Positions 3,715-10,410 of a stretch of 64,000 bases of DNA are shown here, piece by piece. The notes under the pieces were generated by a model. That model worked only from the letters and a program-made list of their open reading frames with translations, searched no databases and was not told where the DNA came from. Source of the stretch: a bacterium (GTDB taxonomy: Bacteria > Electryoneota > Electryoneia > Electryoneales > Electryoneaceae); the NCBI GenBank assembly GCA_020444265.1, contig JAHLLH010000005.1:248001-312000 (forward strand). Reading direction: 5' to 3'. Positions within the stretch are counted from its first letter, which is position 1, and the number at the start of each line of letters is the position of its first letter. The translations under genes and the position numbers were made by a program.

Positions 3715-5271
3715 ATGATCCTACCCCGCAGCTTGTTGAAAACGATTCTCCTCTTCTCCCTTCTCGTATTCCTCGCGGGTTGCGGGACTACTCCACCCGA
3801 CACTCTCACACCTGACATTTCGAGTGACGATCTGCAAGCGATGATCGCGCACCTTGCCTCCGATGCGATGGAGGGACGGCGTGCCGGGACCCGTGGCTTT
3901 GATTATGCGGCGGAGTACGCCGCCCAGGTTTTCGAACAGATCGGCTGCGAACAACCCTTCCTCGATGAAAGGGGGAAACCAACCTGGTTCCAACCCGTTC
4001 CGCTGGTGCACATCGAGTATGGGCGAAAGAACGGTATTTCAATTCGCACAGTAGAAGGGGATAGCAGCTTTGGACGAGGAGTAGACGGCCTTGTCTTCAT
4101 CGCACCCGGGCAGCAAGCTCCTCCAGATGCCCCCATCACTCCCATCTTCGTCGGCTATGGCATCCATGAGCCTGACCTGGGCTGGGATGACTTCGAGGGG
4201 CTGGATCTGCGCGGTAAGGTTGTGGTTGTTCTGCAGGGCTACCCGGACGACATTGATGCTACTGCCACCCTGCCAGACACACTTGTCAAACATTACGAAG
4301 GCTGGTCTGGATTGGGCTTCGGGTTGAGTACAAGGAAGCGAATCGCGCTGGCAGAACAGGAGGTTGCCGGGGTACTTGTTCTCCCAAGCCGTCGCCTGCT
4401 GGCACGCTGGGGCACCCTCCGTTACCACGAGCACTGGTTCGACCTGCTGCCCGAGATCGATGATCGCGACCAACCAGCCGACCCACCCTACCCGATCGTA
4501 GTGCTGCCACGAGAAGCGGTCCGTCACATGTTCAAAAACCGTGACTTCAACCCACTTAGCCGAACGGGTACTCCCAAGCGTGGGCCAATGAATGGTATTG
4601 AAATCACGTGGCGCTACGATGTCAAACGGACCGCGGTCCTCTCCCACAATATCGGTGGTTTTGTACCGGGTTTTGACCCCGAATTAGCTGGACAAGTGGT
4701 GGTTTCGATGGCCCATCTCGACCATCTCGGGATGCGAGAAGGGGGCATCTACAACGGTGCGAATGACAATGCCAGCGGATCGGTGGCGGTACTCGAAGCG
4801 GCGGGTGCCTTTGCCGACCAGCCTGGTGCGAGAAGCAGCCTTTTCCTGCTGACAACCGCCGAAGAGGTTGGTTTCTGGGGCAGCTTGCGATTTGTCCAGG
4901 ATGCACCCTTACCTCTCGACTCGATTCGAGCCGTGGTCAACTTCGACGAGGCGGGCATCCTTGCGGACTTCAATCGTGTCGAAGGGATCGGGGATTCGAT
5001 CTTTGCTGTCCCCCTGAAGGTCGGAGCACGTACACATTCGCTGGAAGAGCCGTGGTTCAAACTCGCTGGATCACGTGGCACGTCGATCTTCAAACGAAGC
5101 GATCATTATAACTTCGCGCGACGAGGGATCCCCAGTCTCTTCCTCTGGACCGGCCACTTCCCCGAATACCATTCCACCGTCGATGACCTCGACCGGATCG
5201 ACCCTGTGGTTCTGTACGAATCGACCCTCCTGCTGGAGGGGTTGCTGCGCGAGCTGACGAACCAGCAGTGA
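3715..5271 (+). CDS. M28-family zinc metallopeptidase, lipoprotein, with PA-type insert
   Basis: 518 residues. The signal sequence ends in a lipobox (FLAGC, Cys23), so the enzyme is probably membrane-anchored outside the cytoplasm. Residues ~130-200 (FVGYGI, DLRGKVVVVLQG) match a protease-associated domain inserted before the catalytic core. The M28 metal ligands are visible in order: HLDHLG, NGANDNASG, the EE pair in TTAEEVGFWGS, the Asp in NFDEAG, and the His in SDHYNF. It likely acts as an aminopeptidase or carboxypeptidase on peptides. The ATG at 3715 was preferred over the GTG one codon upstream because GGAG lies 5 nt away. Confidence 0.88.
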   Translation: MILPRSLLKTILLFSLLVFLAGCGTTPPDTLTPDISSDDLQAMIAHLASDAMEGRRAGTRGFDYAAEYAAQVFEQIGCEQPFLDERGKPTWFQPVPLVHIEYGRKNGISIRTVEGDSSFGRGVDGLVFIAPGQQAPPDAPITPIFVGYGIHEPDLGWDDFEGLDLRGKVVVVLQGYPDDIDATATLPDTLVKHYEGWSGLGFGLSTRKRIALAEQEVAGVLVLPSRRLLARWGTLRYHEHWFDLLPEIDDRDQPADPPYPIVVLPREAVRHMFKNRDFNPLSRTGTPKRGPMNGIEITWRYDVKRTAVLSHNIGGFVPGFDPELAGQVVVSMAHLDHLGMREGGIYNGANDNASGSVAVLEAAGAFADQPGARSSLFLLTTAEEVGFWGSLRFVQDAPLPLDSIRAVVNFDEAGILADFNRVEGIGDSIFAVPLKVGARTHSLEEPWFKLAGSRGTSIFKRSDHYNFARRGIPSLFLWTGHFPEYHSTVDDLDRIDPVVLYESTLLLEGLLRELTNQQ

Positions 5272-5366: not shown

Positions 5367-6224
5367 GTGGCTGGCCAGCTATCAACAACACCGTTCAAAA
5401 CCTGTACCCTATGCTCGCACTGCTGGTGTGAGATGCAGTCCTTTCTCGAAGATCACACTCTTCGTCTAGAGGGATACCAGGCATCATTTGTGAACCCCGA
5501 AAAAGGATTGTTTCTATTCACGCACGTAGATCATGAATGTGGGACAACCCTCTCCATCCGCGCTGGATTGCTGAAAGAACTGGCACCCAATACCCATGTG
5601 GATGTGAACCACACCGGACAGGATGGATGCCCGGGGTACTGCCTTGACGAACATAATTTCGACAAGTGTGACCAGGTGTGCGATATGCGTTGGGTACGCG
5701 ACCTGCTGCCCCTGCTGGAGAAACACGAACTGACCCCGGCACGGATGGAGCAGCTGAAAAACGACCCGATGGTACGTATCGACGTATCGCCCGAACGGAG
5801 GAAACCCGGGATGGTTCATTTGGAGTGGAAACCTGCCTACAGTGTGGGCATTGAAAAATTTGACAATCAGCACAAACAGCTGTTTGATATTGTCAACCAG
5901 ATGGGTGAAAGCATCAGCAAGGGTGAAGATCATGACACCCTGCGGGCCATCTTCAAGAAATTGATCGAATACACACGCATCCATTTCCGGGACGAGGAAG
6001 CCAACCTGCTGATGTATGGGTACGAAAATTATCACGAGCACAAACTCGAGCATGATGAGCTCGTTGCCCAGGTCGTCGATTTTGCCCTCGATTTTTGCGC
6101 CAACCCGGAGATGACGCTCAAGACCATGACCTTCCTCGAAGGATGGATCATCGGTCATATCCTGGGGACGGATAAGGGGTATACGGAACTGCTGAAAGAG
6201 AAAGATATCATCGACTGGGAATGA
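5367..6224 (+). CDS. Cys-rich domain fused to bacteriohemerythrin
   Basis: About 285 residues. The C-terminal ~135 residues are a bacteriohemerythrin, an O2-binding diiron four-helix bundle. The ligands are present: His in DNQHKQLF, HFRDEE, HEHKLEH and the HxxxxD of GHILGTD. The N-terminal ~140 residues share a distinctive layout with the protein at 7140-7517: a CSHC pair, an HVDHEC motif, then C-x3-C-x8-C-x3-C-x-MRWVRDL. This layout suggests a metal or redox centre feeding or sensing the diiron site. The start is uncertain. GTG 5367 has a GGGGG 4 nt upstream and matches the length of the paralogue; GTG 5268 overlaps the peptidase stop codon. There is no signal peptide. Confidence 0.8.
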   Translation: MAGQLSTTPFKTCTLCSHCWCEMQSFLEDHTLRLEGYQASFVNPEKGLFLFTHVDHECGTTLSIRAGLLKELAPNTHVDVNHTGQDGCPGYCLDEHNFDKCDQVCDMRWVRDLLPLLEKHELTPARMEQLKNDPMVRIDVSPERRKPGMVHLEWKPAYSVGIEKFDNQHKQLFDIVNQMGESISKGEDHDTLRAIFKKLIEYTRIHFRDEEANLLMYGYENYHEHKLEHDELVAQVVDFALDFCANPEMTLKTMTFLEGWIIGHILGTDKGYTELLKEKDIIDWE

Positions 6225-6248
6225 GCCAATCCCGGTCGATGGTTTCAG

Positions 6249-6275
6249 AACCCGACTTGTAAGCAAGTAGGGTTT
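6249..6275 (+). terminator. Probable terminator of the hemerythrin-fusion gene
   Basis: Two 5-bp stem blocks (AACCC/GGGTT and ACTTG/CAAGT) separated by one unpaired position surround a TAAG loop and are followed by a short T run. It lies 25 nt after the stop codon. Confidence 0.5.
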
Positions 6276-6309
6276 ATAGATGTAGGTCGGGGCTTGCCTG
6301 CCTGTGGAT

Positions 6310-6408
6310 GGTTTCCAACCCCGGCACGGTCCGGCAGCTGCCGGACGTTCATTTTAAGAAGGTGTCAAGGGCCCTGAGGCCCCTTCTCGGTCGCCGGGGT
6401 TGGAAACC
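6310..6408. repeat. Long inverted repeat with nested 18-nt palindrome
   Basis: 16-bp arms at 6310-6325 (GGTTTCCAACCCCGGC) and 6393-6408 are perfectly complementary. Between them lies a perfect 18-nt palindrome (6329-6346). GTAGG and CCTAC bases further out extend the symmetry. The outer right end reaches the 3' end of the acetyltransferase gene. It looks like a dispersed REP-type intergenic element. Confidence 0.6.
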
Positions 6409-6413
6409 CTGGC

Positions 6414-6860
6414 CTACGCTTGATACGGCGCATCCTCAACCAGACGTTTCCCCCAACCGACGATCTCGTTGTCCACGTACCCGATCGCATCGTAGAAGCG
6501 GATCACCTTCTCGTTGCCGATGCGCACTTCCAGGTTGATCTTCGGTGCGCCCTGTTCGCGCAGGTAGGTCTCGGCGGCATCCATCATCTGCTCGCCAAAT
6601 CCATGACGCTGCATCTCCGGGTGAACCGCGAGGTAGTAGATCCAGCCACGATGGCCATCATAGCCCGCCATCACCGACGCCACCAGCTTCCCTTCCACCT
6701 CCCCGATGAGAAAGCCGTCCGGGCTGTGGGCCAGCTTCCGGTCGATGTCCTGCTTTGGGTTGTTCCAGGGGCGTGTCAGGCCGCAATCGATCCAGAGTTG
6801 GATCAAATCCGCTTCATCAGATGGGCGACAGGTGCGAATGGTGAGCACAGGGTGGGGCAT
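6414..6860 (-). CDS. ypeA: GNAT-family N-acetyltransferase, YpeA type
   Basis: 148 residues, close to E. coli YpeA (about 141), which it resembles through RPWNNPKQDIDRK near the N-terminus, then GYDGHRGWIYYLAVHPEMQRHGFG (given here as a region, about residues 75-98) and the terminal GKRLVEDAPY. The Q-R-H-G-F-G stretch is the acetyl-CoA pyrophosphate loop. The acceptor substrate is unknown. Start chosen at 6860, where GGAGG lies 4 nt upstream; the open frame extends 37 codons further without support. Confidence 0.85.
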   Translation of the reverse strand: MPHPVLTIRTCRPSDEADLIQLWIDCGLTRPWNNPKQDIDRKLAHSPDGFLIGEVEGKLVASVMAGYDGHRGWIYYLAVHPEMQRHGFGEQMMDAAETYLREQGAPKINLEVRIGNEKVIRFYDAIGYVDNEIVGWGKRLVEDAPYQA

Positions 6861-6882
6861 GAAACCTCCGGCATTTACCTGG

Positions 6883-6902
6883 CCCGACACTTCAGTGTCG
6901 GG
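6883..6902. repeat. Perfect 9-bp stem-loop upstream of ypeA
   Basis: CCCGACACT / AGTGTCGGG separated by two bases, followed on the plus strand by TTTCTT. It sits 22 bp upstream of the ypeA start, in its leader on the minus strand. It could be a plus-strand terminator or a short dispersed palindrome. Confidence 0.45.
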
Positions 6903-7139
6903 TTTCTTCGGAAGGAAAAGGGCTCCCTCCCGCCGGAATTTCAATGTAAACCAAGTTCTTGGTCGTAGCAAGACCGCTAGAGTTTACAGAGCCTACAGAC
7001 GCTCTTTCCACTCCAACAAGAAATTCACATTGTGATACCCATCACTCCAGATTCGCCGATTTACGGAATTGGTACGGGGTTTGCAGAATTGTTAGGCAAA
7101 GGGGGACGATGTCTTGTTTCAATACAGGAGGGCCCCACG

Positions 7140-7517
7140 ATGATCAGCACCCAGGTTTTTGCCCATTGTTCGAACTGTGGCGCGGGTTGGAGCACGGTGG
7201 AGGACTTCGTTTCTGACCCCTCCATCGAGTTAATCGGCTGCCAGGCCTCGCTGTTGAGCCCGGAACGCAGTGTGTACGTTTTTGCCCACCATGGGCACGA
7301 ATGTGACGATACCGTTGAGGTTCACGCGGGCGCGTTAAAGGACTTCGCCTTCAATCTCGACCTGACAGCCCGTGCCGCGGGCGGCCCCACCTGCAACCAT
7401 GCCTGCTTCGCCAGCGGCGACCTCGCACCCTGCGCCGTCAACTGCTACATGCGCTGGGTCCGTGACCTCATCCCCATGCTGCAAAACAAAACCCTCGTCG
7501 TCCGTCGAGCGGGGTGA
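7140..7517 (+). CDS. Stand-alone Cys-rich domain protein, paralogue of the hemerythrin N-terminus
   Basis: 125 residues, unrecognised family. It aligns along its whole length with the N-terminal domain of the hemerythrin fusion at 5367-6224: CSNC, G-C-QAS...PE, HHGHEC, then C-x3-C-x8-C-x3-C-x-MRWVRDLIPML. The conserved Cys and His pattern suggests binding of metal, iron-sulfur or haem. No signal peptide or membrane segment is present. GGAGGG lies 7 nt upstream of ATG 7140, which decides the start. A strong intrinsic terminator follows at 7541. Confidence 0.75.
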   Translation: MISTQVFAHCSNCGAGWSTVEDFVSDPSIELIGCQASLLSPERSVYVFAHHGHECDDTVEVHAGALKDFAFNLDLTARAAGGPTCNHACFASGDLAPCAVNCYMRWVRDLIPMLQNKTLVVRRAG

Positions 7518-7540
7518 TTTGATACGATAGTGTTTGATTG

Positions 7541-7572
7541 GCCCGGGCAATCTCCGTTGCCCGGGTTTCTTC
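7541..7572 (+). terminator. Intrinsic terminator of the Cys-rich protein gene
   Basis: CCCGGGCAA / TTGCCCGGG stem with a 6-nt loop followed by TTTCTT, 24 nt after the stop codon. Its distal half overlaps the first unit of the 46-bp tandem repeat. Confidence 0.75.
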
Positions 7573-7697: not shown

Positions 7698-8031
7698 TTC
7701 GTCGCCTGCGATTGTTTCCCAACCCTTCCCGACCACCTCACCACCGTGGCGATTGCGACTAAATCTTTCGGCATTCGATAGAAAGTGAAGAAACCCTGCC
7801 AACAAGATTGGCAGGGCCACGCACCCCTCCGCCCGTTTCACGCACGATACACGGGCAGGATGCCCGTGCTACACACACCCCTGGCCCGTGCCTGCGGCCC
7901 TGGGCTATCCTGTTTTCAAACCTTCCCGCGCCCAGGCGCGAAACATGGTTGCCGGATTCAAGAATCCGGCCTGCACTAAAAAGCCCCATCCATTTGGATG
8001 GGGCTTGGACGTTCGATGTACACCGGATCGT
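7698..8031. other. Non-coding interval rich in short palindromes
   Basis: No convincing gene. Moving rightwards it holds a 9-bp stem (7794-7816) followed on the minus strand by GGGTTTCTTCACTTT; a CACGGGCA/TGCCCGTG palindrome (7850-7868), part of the dispersed element whose chance translation reads GQDARAT in many genomes; a GCCGGATTC/GAATCCGGC palindrome (7951-7970); and the sucCD terminator. Confidence 0.6.
7981..8006 (-). terminator. Intrinsic terminator of sucCD
   Basis: Perfect 11-bp stem (AAGCCCCATCC and complement) with a 4-nt loop. On the minus strand it is followed by a run of T, 25 nt beyond the sucD stop codon. Confidence 0.88.
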
Positions 8032-8901
8032 CTATCCCAGCGATTCCTTCATCAGCTTGCCGATCTCGGCCGGGGTCTTGGAGACGCGGATGCCCGCATC
8101 TTCGAGGGCGGCCATCTTTTCGGCGGCGGTGCCTTTGCCGCCGGAGATGATCGCACCAGCGTGGCCCATGCGGCGTCCCGGAGGGGCGGTCGCACCGGCG
8201 ATGAAGCTGACGACGGGCTTCTTGAAGTTGGCCTTGATGTACTCGGCGGCCGCTTCTTCCGCGCCACCACCGATTTCGCCAATCATGACCACACCCTCCG
8301 TCTCATCGTCCTCGTTGAAGAGTTTCAACAGGTCGGTGAAGGTGGAGCCGATGATCGGGTCGCCGCCGATACCAACCGCCGAGGTCTGGCCGAGGCCGTA
8401 CTCAGTGAGCTGGTGCACCGCTTCGTAGGTCAGGGTGCCGGAGCGGCTGATCAGGCCAATGCTGCCGGGTTTGTGAATGAAACCGGGCATGATGCCGATC
8501 TTCGCCTGGCCCGGGGTGATGATGCCGGGGCAGTTGGGACCGATCAGACGGGTCTTGGATTGGCTGAGCTTCGTCTTCACCGTCAGCATATCCTTGACCG
8601 GCACGCCTTCGGTGATGCAGACCACCAAGTCCACACCAGCGTCGATCGCTTCCAGGATGCCATCGGCCGCGAAGGGCGGCGGGACAAAGATGACGGACGC
8701 ATTCGCGCCAGTCTCTTCGACCGCTTCAGCAACGCTGTTGAAAACCGGACGATCGAGGTGCATCTGGCCGCCCTTACCGGGGGTCACACCGGCGACCACA
8801 TTGGTGCCGTACTCGATCATCTGCTCGGTATGAAAGCTTCCTTCGCCGCCCGTGATGCCCTGGACGACGAGACGGGTATCTTTGTTAACGAGGATCGACA
8901 T
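8032..8901 (-). CDS. sucD: Succinate-CoA ligase (ADP/GDP-forming) subunit alpha
   Basis: 289 residues, the standard length. Forms the SucCD complex that interconverts succinyl-CoA and succinate with substrate-level phosphorylation in the TCA cycle. The N-terminal CoA-binding Rossmann domain contains [10 protein letters not shown] and VTPGKGG. The phosphorylated active-site His lies in [11 protein letters not shown] near residue 241. GPNCPGII is also conserved. The ATG at 8901 abuts the sucC stop codon with no gap, so translation is probably coupled. Confidence 0.97.
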
Positions 8902-10077
8902 TTAGGCCACCTCCTTCGCTGCGGCAACGACCTTCTCGGCCGCATCCTTGAGGTTCGTCGCGACGATGAACTTCAGGGGGCTGTTCTCCAGCATCTCGCC
9001 CGCCAGCTCGGCGTTGGTACCCGCAAGGCGCACCACGACCGGCACGTTCACCTCGAGTTCCGAATCGCTGAGCGCATCGATGATGCCCTGCGCAACACGG
9101 TCACAGCGGACAATCCCGCCGAAGATGTTGATCAGCACCGCTTTGACGTTCGCGTCGCGCATGATCAGCTTGAAGGCCGCCTTGACACGCTCCGCATTGG
9201 CACCGCCGCCCACATCGAGGAAATTGGCCGGATCGCCGCCAGAATACTTGATGATGTCCATGGTCGCCATCGCCAGACCAGCGCCGTTGACCATGCAGCC
9301 GACGTTGCCATCGAGCTTAATGAAGTTGAGGTCGTATTCGGACGCTTCGACTTCCGCCGGGTCCTCTTCATCGAAGTCACGGTATTCGACGATGTCCTTG
9401 TGACGGTACATCGCGTTGTCGTCGAAGTTGACCTTGGCGTCCAGCGCGATCACATCTCCGTCCTCGGTCAGCACGAGGGGGTTGATCTCGGCGAGGGAGG
9501 CATCGGTTTCCTTGTACATCTTGTAGAGGTTCAGGAAGAACCCGGCTGCCTTGTTGACCGCCTTGCCTTCGAGGCCGAGGGCGAAGGCCATCCGGCGTGC
9601 TTCGAACGCCTGCAAGCCGAATGCGGGATCGACACCGACCTTGACAATCTTTTCGGGGGTCTCCGCCGCGACCTTCTCGATCTCGACTCCACCCTCGGTG
9701 GAAACCATGAAGGTATCGCGCACGTTGTCACGGTCAAGCGTCAGGCCCGCGTAGAACTCTTTCGCGATCTTGCTGCCCTGCTCAACCAGGACCGTCTTGA
9801 CCTTCTGTCCTTCCGGTCCAGTCTGGTGGGTGACCAGCTGCATGCCGAGGATTTGCTCGGCGGCTGCTTTCGCCTCTTCGGGGCTTTTGACGACTTTCAC
9901 ACCGCCGCCCTTGCCACGGCCACCGGCATGAATCTGTGCCTTGACCACCACCACACCGCCGCCCAACTCACGGGCGATGGCTTCCGCCTGCTCCGGCGTC
10001 GTGGCCACCTTGCCATCCGGCACGGCCACTTTGTACGTCCGCAGCAGTTCCTTCGCCTGGTACTCGTGGATCTTCAT
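8902..10077 (-). CDS. sucC: Succinate-CoA ligase subunit beta
   Basis: 391 residues (E. coli SucC is 388). Begins with the canonical [12 protein letters not shown]. An ATP-grasp fold follows, with [16 protein letters not shown] and the Mg/nucleotide-binding EINPL around residue 197. The C-terminal ligase domain contains [10 protein letters not shown]. First gene of sucCD. The ATG at 10077 was chosen by homology; the 37 upstream in-frame codons do not resemble SucC. Confidence 0.97.
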
Positions 10078-10410
10078 CCAGGAACCCCCGGGTGTAGGAT
10101 TGGATTCTGTAGGAAGCATTTCCAGCCAACCATGAACCTCAGGTGTAACAGGAGCTCGGGGCACAAGGTTTGGCAGAGAACGTTCCATTCTTTTCGTATG
10201 AAGCCAAAGATAAGCCGTGTGAAGCGGAAATGGGATTCAGGCTCCGCTCCGCGAGCGGAGGGGAGACAGCAGGTTGGGCAAATGGCCACTGTAGTTGGCG
10301 GTTCGCCGAAAGTATGTTTTCCCTAACGAATACCGAAAACGGAATGTTCTGTTGTAATTCTGATGATTTCGAGTTGTATCTTGGGGCTGGAAAACCAAAC
10401 ACATGCAGGA
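10078..10410. other. Divergent intergenic region between sucC and the 7TM receptor gene
   Basis: Must contain promoters for both directions, but I find no confident -35/-10 pair. A stem CTCCGCTC/GAGCGGAG (10242-10260) is the only clear secondary structure. No coding sequence is apparent. Confidence 0.4.

Follow-up and report, generated by a model that had tools for sequence, protein, structure and literature searches.

A conserved Cys/His domain, once fused to a bacteriohemerythrin and once free-standing, defines a family of small, probably metal-binding proteins

Hemerythrin sensors joined to variable output domains are an established kind of protein (PMC9388753), and fusion to another domain is common among sensors of the bacteriohemerythrin/DcrH-Hr type (PMC9388753, PMC4919030). 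Named partners in DcrH-Hr type sensors (NF033749, TIGR02481) are MCP, GGDEF, HD-GYP, and ATPase parts, and in 56.9% of the long O2-binding hemerythrin architectures, the flanks have no Pfam homologues (PMC4919030). Moreover, the plant HRZ/BTS E3 ubiquitin ligases combine hemerythrin with zinc modules (CHY, CTCHY, RING, and zinc ribbon) in one chain (PMC6381054). Here, we describe two genes in a 64,000-nucleotide stretch of an Electryoneota genome (the window), one joining a Cys/His domain to a bacteriohemerythrin and the other encoding the Cys/His domain by itself. The window fusion would belong to the published class of long hemerythrins with Pfam-less flanks (PMC4919030): the C-terminal half genuinely belongs to the DcrH-Hr type and has the full diiron ligand set, but its partner is a domain without a name. 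A hemerythrin and a putative zinc module in one chain are also common to the fusion and HRZ/BTS, by analogy and not by kinship. Unlike the plant proteins, however, the window fusion is bacterial, carries its putative zinc part first, and has no CHY, CTCHY, or RING match.

The fusion gene (5367..6224, forward strand) encodes 285 amino acids, with the Cys/His domain at about residues 1 to 126 (5403..5744, forward), a linker of about 25 residues, and the bacteriohemerythrin at residues 152 to 277 (5820..6197, forward). The frame is open from a GTG at 5268, and GGGGG lies just 5' of the GTG at 5367; the start is not settled, with 5367 the likelier and 5268 possible. The C-terminal half matched the bacteriohemerythrin model NF033749 with 126.3 bits against a cut-off of 84 (E of 7.7e-37) and Pfam Hemerythrin with an E of 8.6e-12. 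Moreover, all seven diiron ligands (H169, H206, E210, H225, H229, H264, and D269) aligned residue by residue with bacteriohemerythrin 4xpx (E of 1.3e-16), and the C-terminal half is predicted to be an O2-binding diiron domain. Besides Hemerythrin, the fusion had no Pfam match above cut-off, an ATP-cone included.

The free copy (7140..7517, forward) encodes 125 amino acids and is preceded by a ribosome-binding site, GGAGG (7127..7131, forward), 8 bases upstream of its ATG. A terminator-like hairpin follows it (7540..7567, forward), in a 2.5-kb region that holds six such sites where 2.4 are expected by chance. That the same domain occurs once fused to hemerythrin and once free had been proposed in a preliminary description of this DNA, and both reading frames are present as described. 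The fused and free domains aligned without gaps over 122 residues at 35% identity (BLASTP E of 2e-27), and a search of the whole genome paired them with an E of 2.3e-23. Thus, the similarity of the pair goes beyond chance. A further weak match on another contig of the same genome (E of 0.027, internal stop) was taken as chance. Between the two copies lies a GNAT acetyltransferase gene (6414..6971, reverse; PF00583, E of 1.4e-19), which is not thought to be part of the two-copy system. Downstream, an 812-codon open frame (7888-10326, forward) runs antisense to sucD-like and sucC-like genes and was judged spurious.

The window copies were sisters (96/90) in a 35-member tree, with branch lengths of 0.41 for the fused copy and 2.68 for the free copy, and the latter, 6.5 times longer, makes the exact placement less sure. 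The nearest outside relatives, in genomes G023 and G021, are free-standing, and thus the fusion probably arose after or along with a local duplication. The gene would have been duplicated within the window genome, with the fused copy keeping its sequence as the free copy diverged fast.

The Cys/His domain appears to stand outside the named families, as first suspected. Searches with single proteins and with 20 members gave no match above noise in Pfam-A, NCBIfam, or PHROGs; among the 20 members scanned, the best Pfam hit (UPF0547, two members) had an E of 0.0057 and the best NCBIfam hit an E of 0.078, both below the curated cut-off. Searches of PDB sequences, with a single protein and with a profile, likewise returned no significant match. 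zf-CHY was absent from the members' Pfam matches up to an E of 1. A literature search found no paper naming the domain, a pattern scan of viral contigs gave 24 matches of which none was a relative, and phage records held no member. We conclude that the domain is undescribed in the libraries searched and that it represents a family of small, probably cytoplasmic proteins that very probably bind metal.

Membership in the family is marked by a near-absolute signature of C-x(1-2)-C, H-x(1-4)-C, and C-x3-C-x(6-10, about 8)-C-x3-C, to which both window copies conform. In an alignment of 76 members, a few rows of which contain stops or frameshifts, C13, H53, C58, and C88 (fusion numbering) were identical in all 76, C92 and C101 were present in 75, and C105 was present in 74. 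C16 was present in 74 members as well, and the other two are shifted by a C-x-C spacing. The corresponding residues of the free copy are C10, C13, H50, C55, C85, C89, C98, and C102. Part of what had been read from the two window sequences is general and part is not. The first His of the HxxHEC motif (HVDHEC/HHGHEC; H53 in the fusion, H50 in the free copy) is invariant, but the second (H56) was found in only 2 of 35 members. Likewise, C-x3-C-x8-C-x3-C was correctly drawn, but the MRWVRDL that follows is confined to near relatives. Within it, only R111, which lies in the last helix, is general (72/76); beyond it and the ligands, no residue of the C-terminal part is nearly constant. Neither Cys 19 nor Cys 21 of the fusion is conserved in the family, and the same applies to the additional Cys of the free copy (GCQAS).

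Two members depart from the ligand set. One, L121, has a reading frame that breaks there. The other, G021_L019 (1483-1845, reverse), is the sole exception with an intact frame, and it lacks C92, C101, and C105 altogether and retains the CxxC, His, and Cys of the first set. As the three cysteines were lost as a unit and the first set was kept, we argue for two separable metal sites. The conservation pattern makes it very probable that the domain holds two metal ions. In our best reading, C-x(1-2)-C with H-x(1-4)-C (putative site 1: C13, C16, H53, and C58) and C-x3-C with C-x3-C (putative site 2: C88, C92, C101, and C105) would each hold one zinc ion, although an Fe-S or iron site may be present instead. 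No signal peptide was seen in the domain proteins, and therefore the cysteines should be reduced. A CxxC and further cysteines beside a diiron domain in one chain could also suggest a rubredoxin- or Fe-S-like site passing electrons to the diiron center, as rubredoxin does in rubrerythrin. Rubredoxin, however, has two CxxC knuckles around a Cys4 iron site, whereas site 1 has an invariant His and its second pair, H-x(1-4)-C, is His plus Cys in 76 of 76 members. We know of no ferredoxin motif that fits the spacing of site 2, and 75 of the 76 members have no attached hemerythrin. We regard electron transfer as improbable.

How the domain might fold was approached with an AlphaFold model of the free copy built from six sequences. 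The model is compact (mean pLDDT of 83, pTM of 0.79) and runs from a short strand pair around the first CxxC through a helix, three strands, and a second helix to the Cys4 stretch and a C-terminal helix. DSSP places C10 and C13 between two short strands and has H50 and C55 on either side of a hairpin turn. In a model of the fusion, the first 70 domain residues reached a pLDDT of about 90, and the hemerythrin part was poorly modeled for want of relatives; most VIA-align rows for that model were helical bundles or hemerythrins and were set aside. Foldseek gave no match at an E of 0.001 or below against the PDB and viral models, which does not make the fold new. VIA-align with the free copy returned PX domains (Z of 2.8 and 2.5) and three NrdR zinc ribbons (Z of 2.4 to 2.7, root mean square deviation of 2.5 to 3.1, 43 to 45 residues, model residues 8 to 68), with PX/PH domains scoring like NrdR and all matches weak (Z below 3). 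In the NrdR alignment, chain residue 1 pairs with model residue 8, such that C3 and C6, which we take to be the first zinc pair of NrdR, would fall on C10/C13 of the model. Within this weak match, NrdR and the domain would each have a CxxC knuckle and, in a hairpin after it, a second pair of ligands; unlike NrdR, the domain has H-x(1-4)-C as its second pair, an extra Cys4 stretch and helix, and no ATP-cone. We infer that the first half would form a zinc-ribbon-like hairpin pair, and that the second half would place a Cys4 site ahead of a C-terminal helix bearing the conserved Arg.

The distribution of the family is broad but patchy. It was surveyed by whole-genome searches; a scan of genome contigs gave four loci only, all in the window's phylum. 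Among 39 genomes of that phylum, members were found in 12 by single-protein search and in 13 by profile search. Members also occur in the phyla of G044, G079, G091, G100, and G346, and abundantly in the group around G333, where a sample of 386 genomes gave 40 with members, a few of which were already counted. Identity among members is mostly 20 to 50%, and 22 to 35% to the free window copy, and copies often occur in tandem or near one another (G000, G011, G029, and many cases in the G333 group). One member (L022:6001-6354) is carried by a Dongshaea marina plasmid (Pseudomonadota; NZ_CP028898.1), where it follows an in-frame TAA after an 85-amino-acid hypothetical protein and where the PLSDB table lists no gene. 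In all, the family spans at least six phyla and one Dongshaea plasmid.

Gene neighborhoods vary among lineages and point to no single pathway. A survey of fusion partners and neighborhoods, as the preliminary description had proposed, yielded two types of fusion among 76 members and no general context. A trmD-rplS / rsmD-rnhB neighborhood holds one to three copies in each of nine G333-group genomes (L123, L124, L128, L130, L132, L137, L138, L145, and L149). Together with the weak NrdR similarity, this location could indicate a zinc-ribbon protein that binds RNA or DNA and is perhaps ribosome linked in some lineages. The trmD-rplS position, however, is confined to a single lineage and could reflect neutral synteny, the window and other contexts are unrelated to translation, and an ATP-cone is absent. 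On balance, we consider a nucleic acid binder unlikely. Elsewhere, members neighbor AMP-binding ligase genes (G061, G208, and G346), a LonB-like protease gene, groEL, or gcvT. At three loci (L069:648-1437, L080:7843-8635, and L133:2915-3659), the start of the domain gene and the end of a gene for a single-domain response regulator overlap, in two instances within an array of such regulator genes. A link to response regulators (L066, L067, L069, L080, and L133) was nevertheless rejected: 5 of 59 loci had one within two genes, which is about chance level as each genome holds 29 to 111 response regulator matches, or roughly 1 to 2.5% of its genes as estimated from genome size.

How the domain relates to hemerythrin is a separate matter. 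The hemerythrin fusion is the only one among 76 members; one other member (L073:6775-7917, reverse; G091) is fused to a complete acyl-ACP thioesterase, and the rest are free-standing, their reading frames ending shortly after the domain. In 21 member-bearing genomes, none of the listed hemerythrins adjoined a member except in the window fusion, 8 of the 21 had no bacteriohemerythrin match, and a family-wide link was thus sought and not found. The fusion being single and several free members residing in genomes without a bacteriohemerythrin, we conclude that the domain does not generally serve a diiron center, a role that the preliminary description had put forward as a possibility. That description had also raised the idea of metal delivery, and a chaperone that supplies the hemerythrin with iron would accord with the joining of a Cys/His domain to a diiron domain. 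The 8 of 21 genomes just mentioned count against it, as do the three other hemerythrins of the window genome, all of which lack the domain, and thiolate sites that suit zinc better than labile Fe(II); a chaperone is very improbable.

We tentatively favor, at somewhat below an even chance, a zinc-stabilized interaction module that was duplicated, with one copy coupled to an O2 or redox sensor in the window genome only. The fold would present a metal-stabilized surface that binds a partner, either protein or RNA, and in the fusion, the O2 or redox state of the hemerythrin would be passed on to the partner held by the zinc module. The free copy may share the fusion's partner or compete for it. 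By analogy with described hemerythrin sensors, the fusion may serve such coupling, and O2-linked signaling by the window fusion alone is possible. Alternatively, the domain might be a zinc-thiolate redox switch in which oxidation of a Cys site frees zinc and alters the fold, as in Hsp33 and the ZAS anti-sigma factors, and in the fusion, it would be fed by peroxide or superoxide released as the hemerythrin autoxidizes. The pairing of two Cys-rich sites, including one Cys4 site, with an autoxidizing diiron domain is consistent with such a switch. Near-absolute conservation of both sites, however, fits structural zinc equally well, and no general oxidative-stress gene context was found at the loci examined; we think a switch of this kind unlikely. 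In a bolder version, the family would be a new two-metal fold working as a redox or metal switch. The window fusion would then sense O2, with the switch reading out its diiron state, and hemerythrin outputs of this type have not previously been described. We hold this version to be unlikely as well.

Whichever reading holds, the analysis delineates a conserved domain family that has sharply marked putative metal-site residues and has gone unrecognized in current family libraries. About one in three sampled genomes of the window's phylum contain a member, and the family is common in a second group. One anonymous flank of the long hemerythrins is now assigned to a family. G021_L019 offers a natural test of site independence, and the fused and free copies in one genome are a natural pair for probing the role of the domain.
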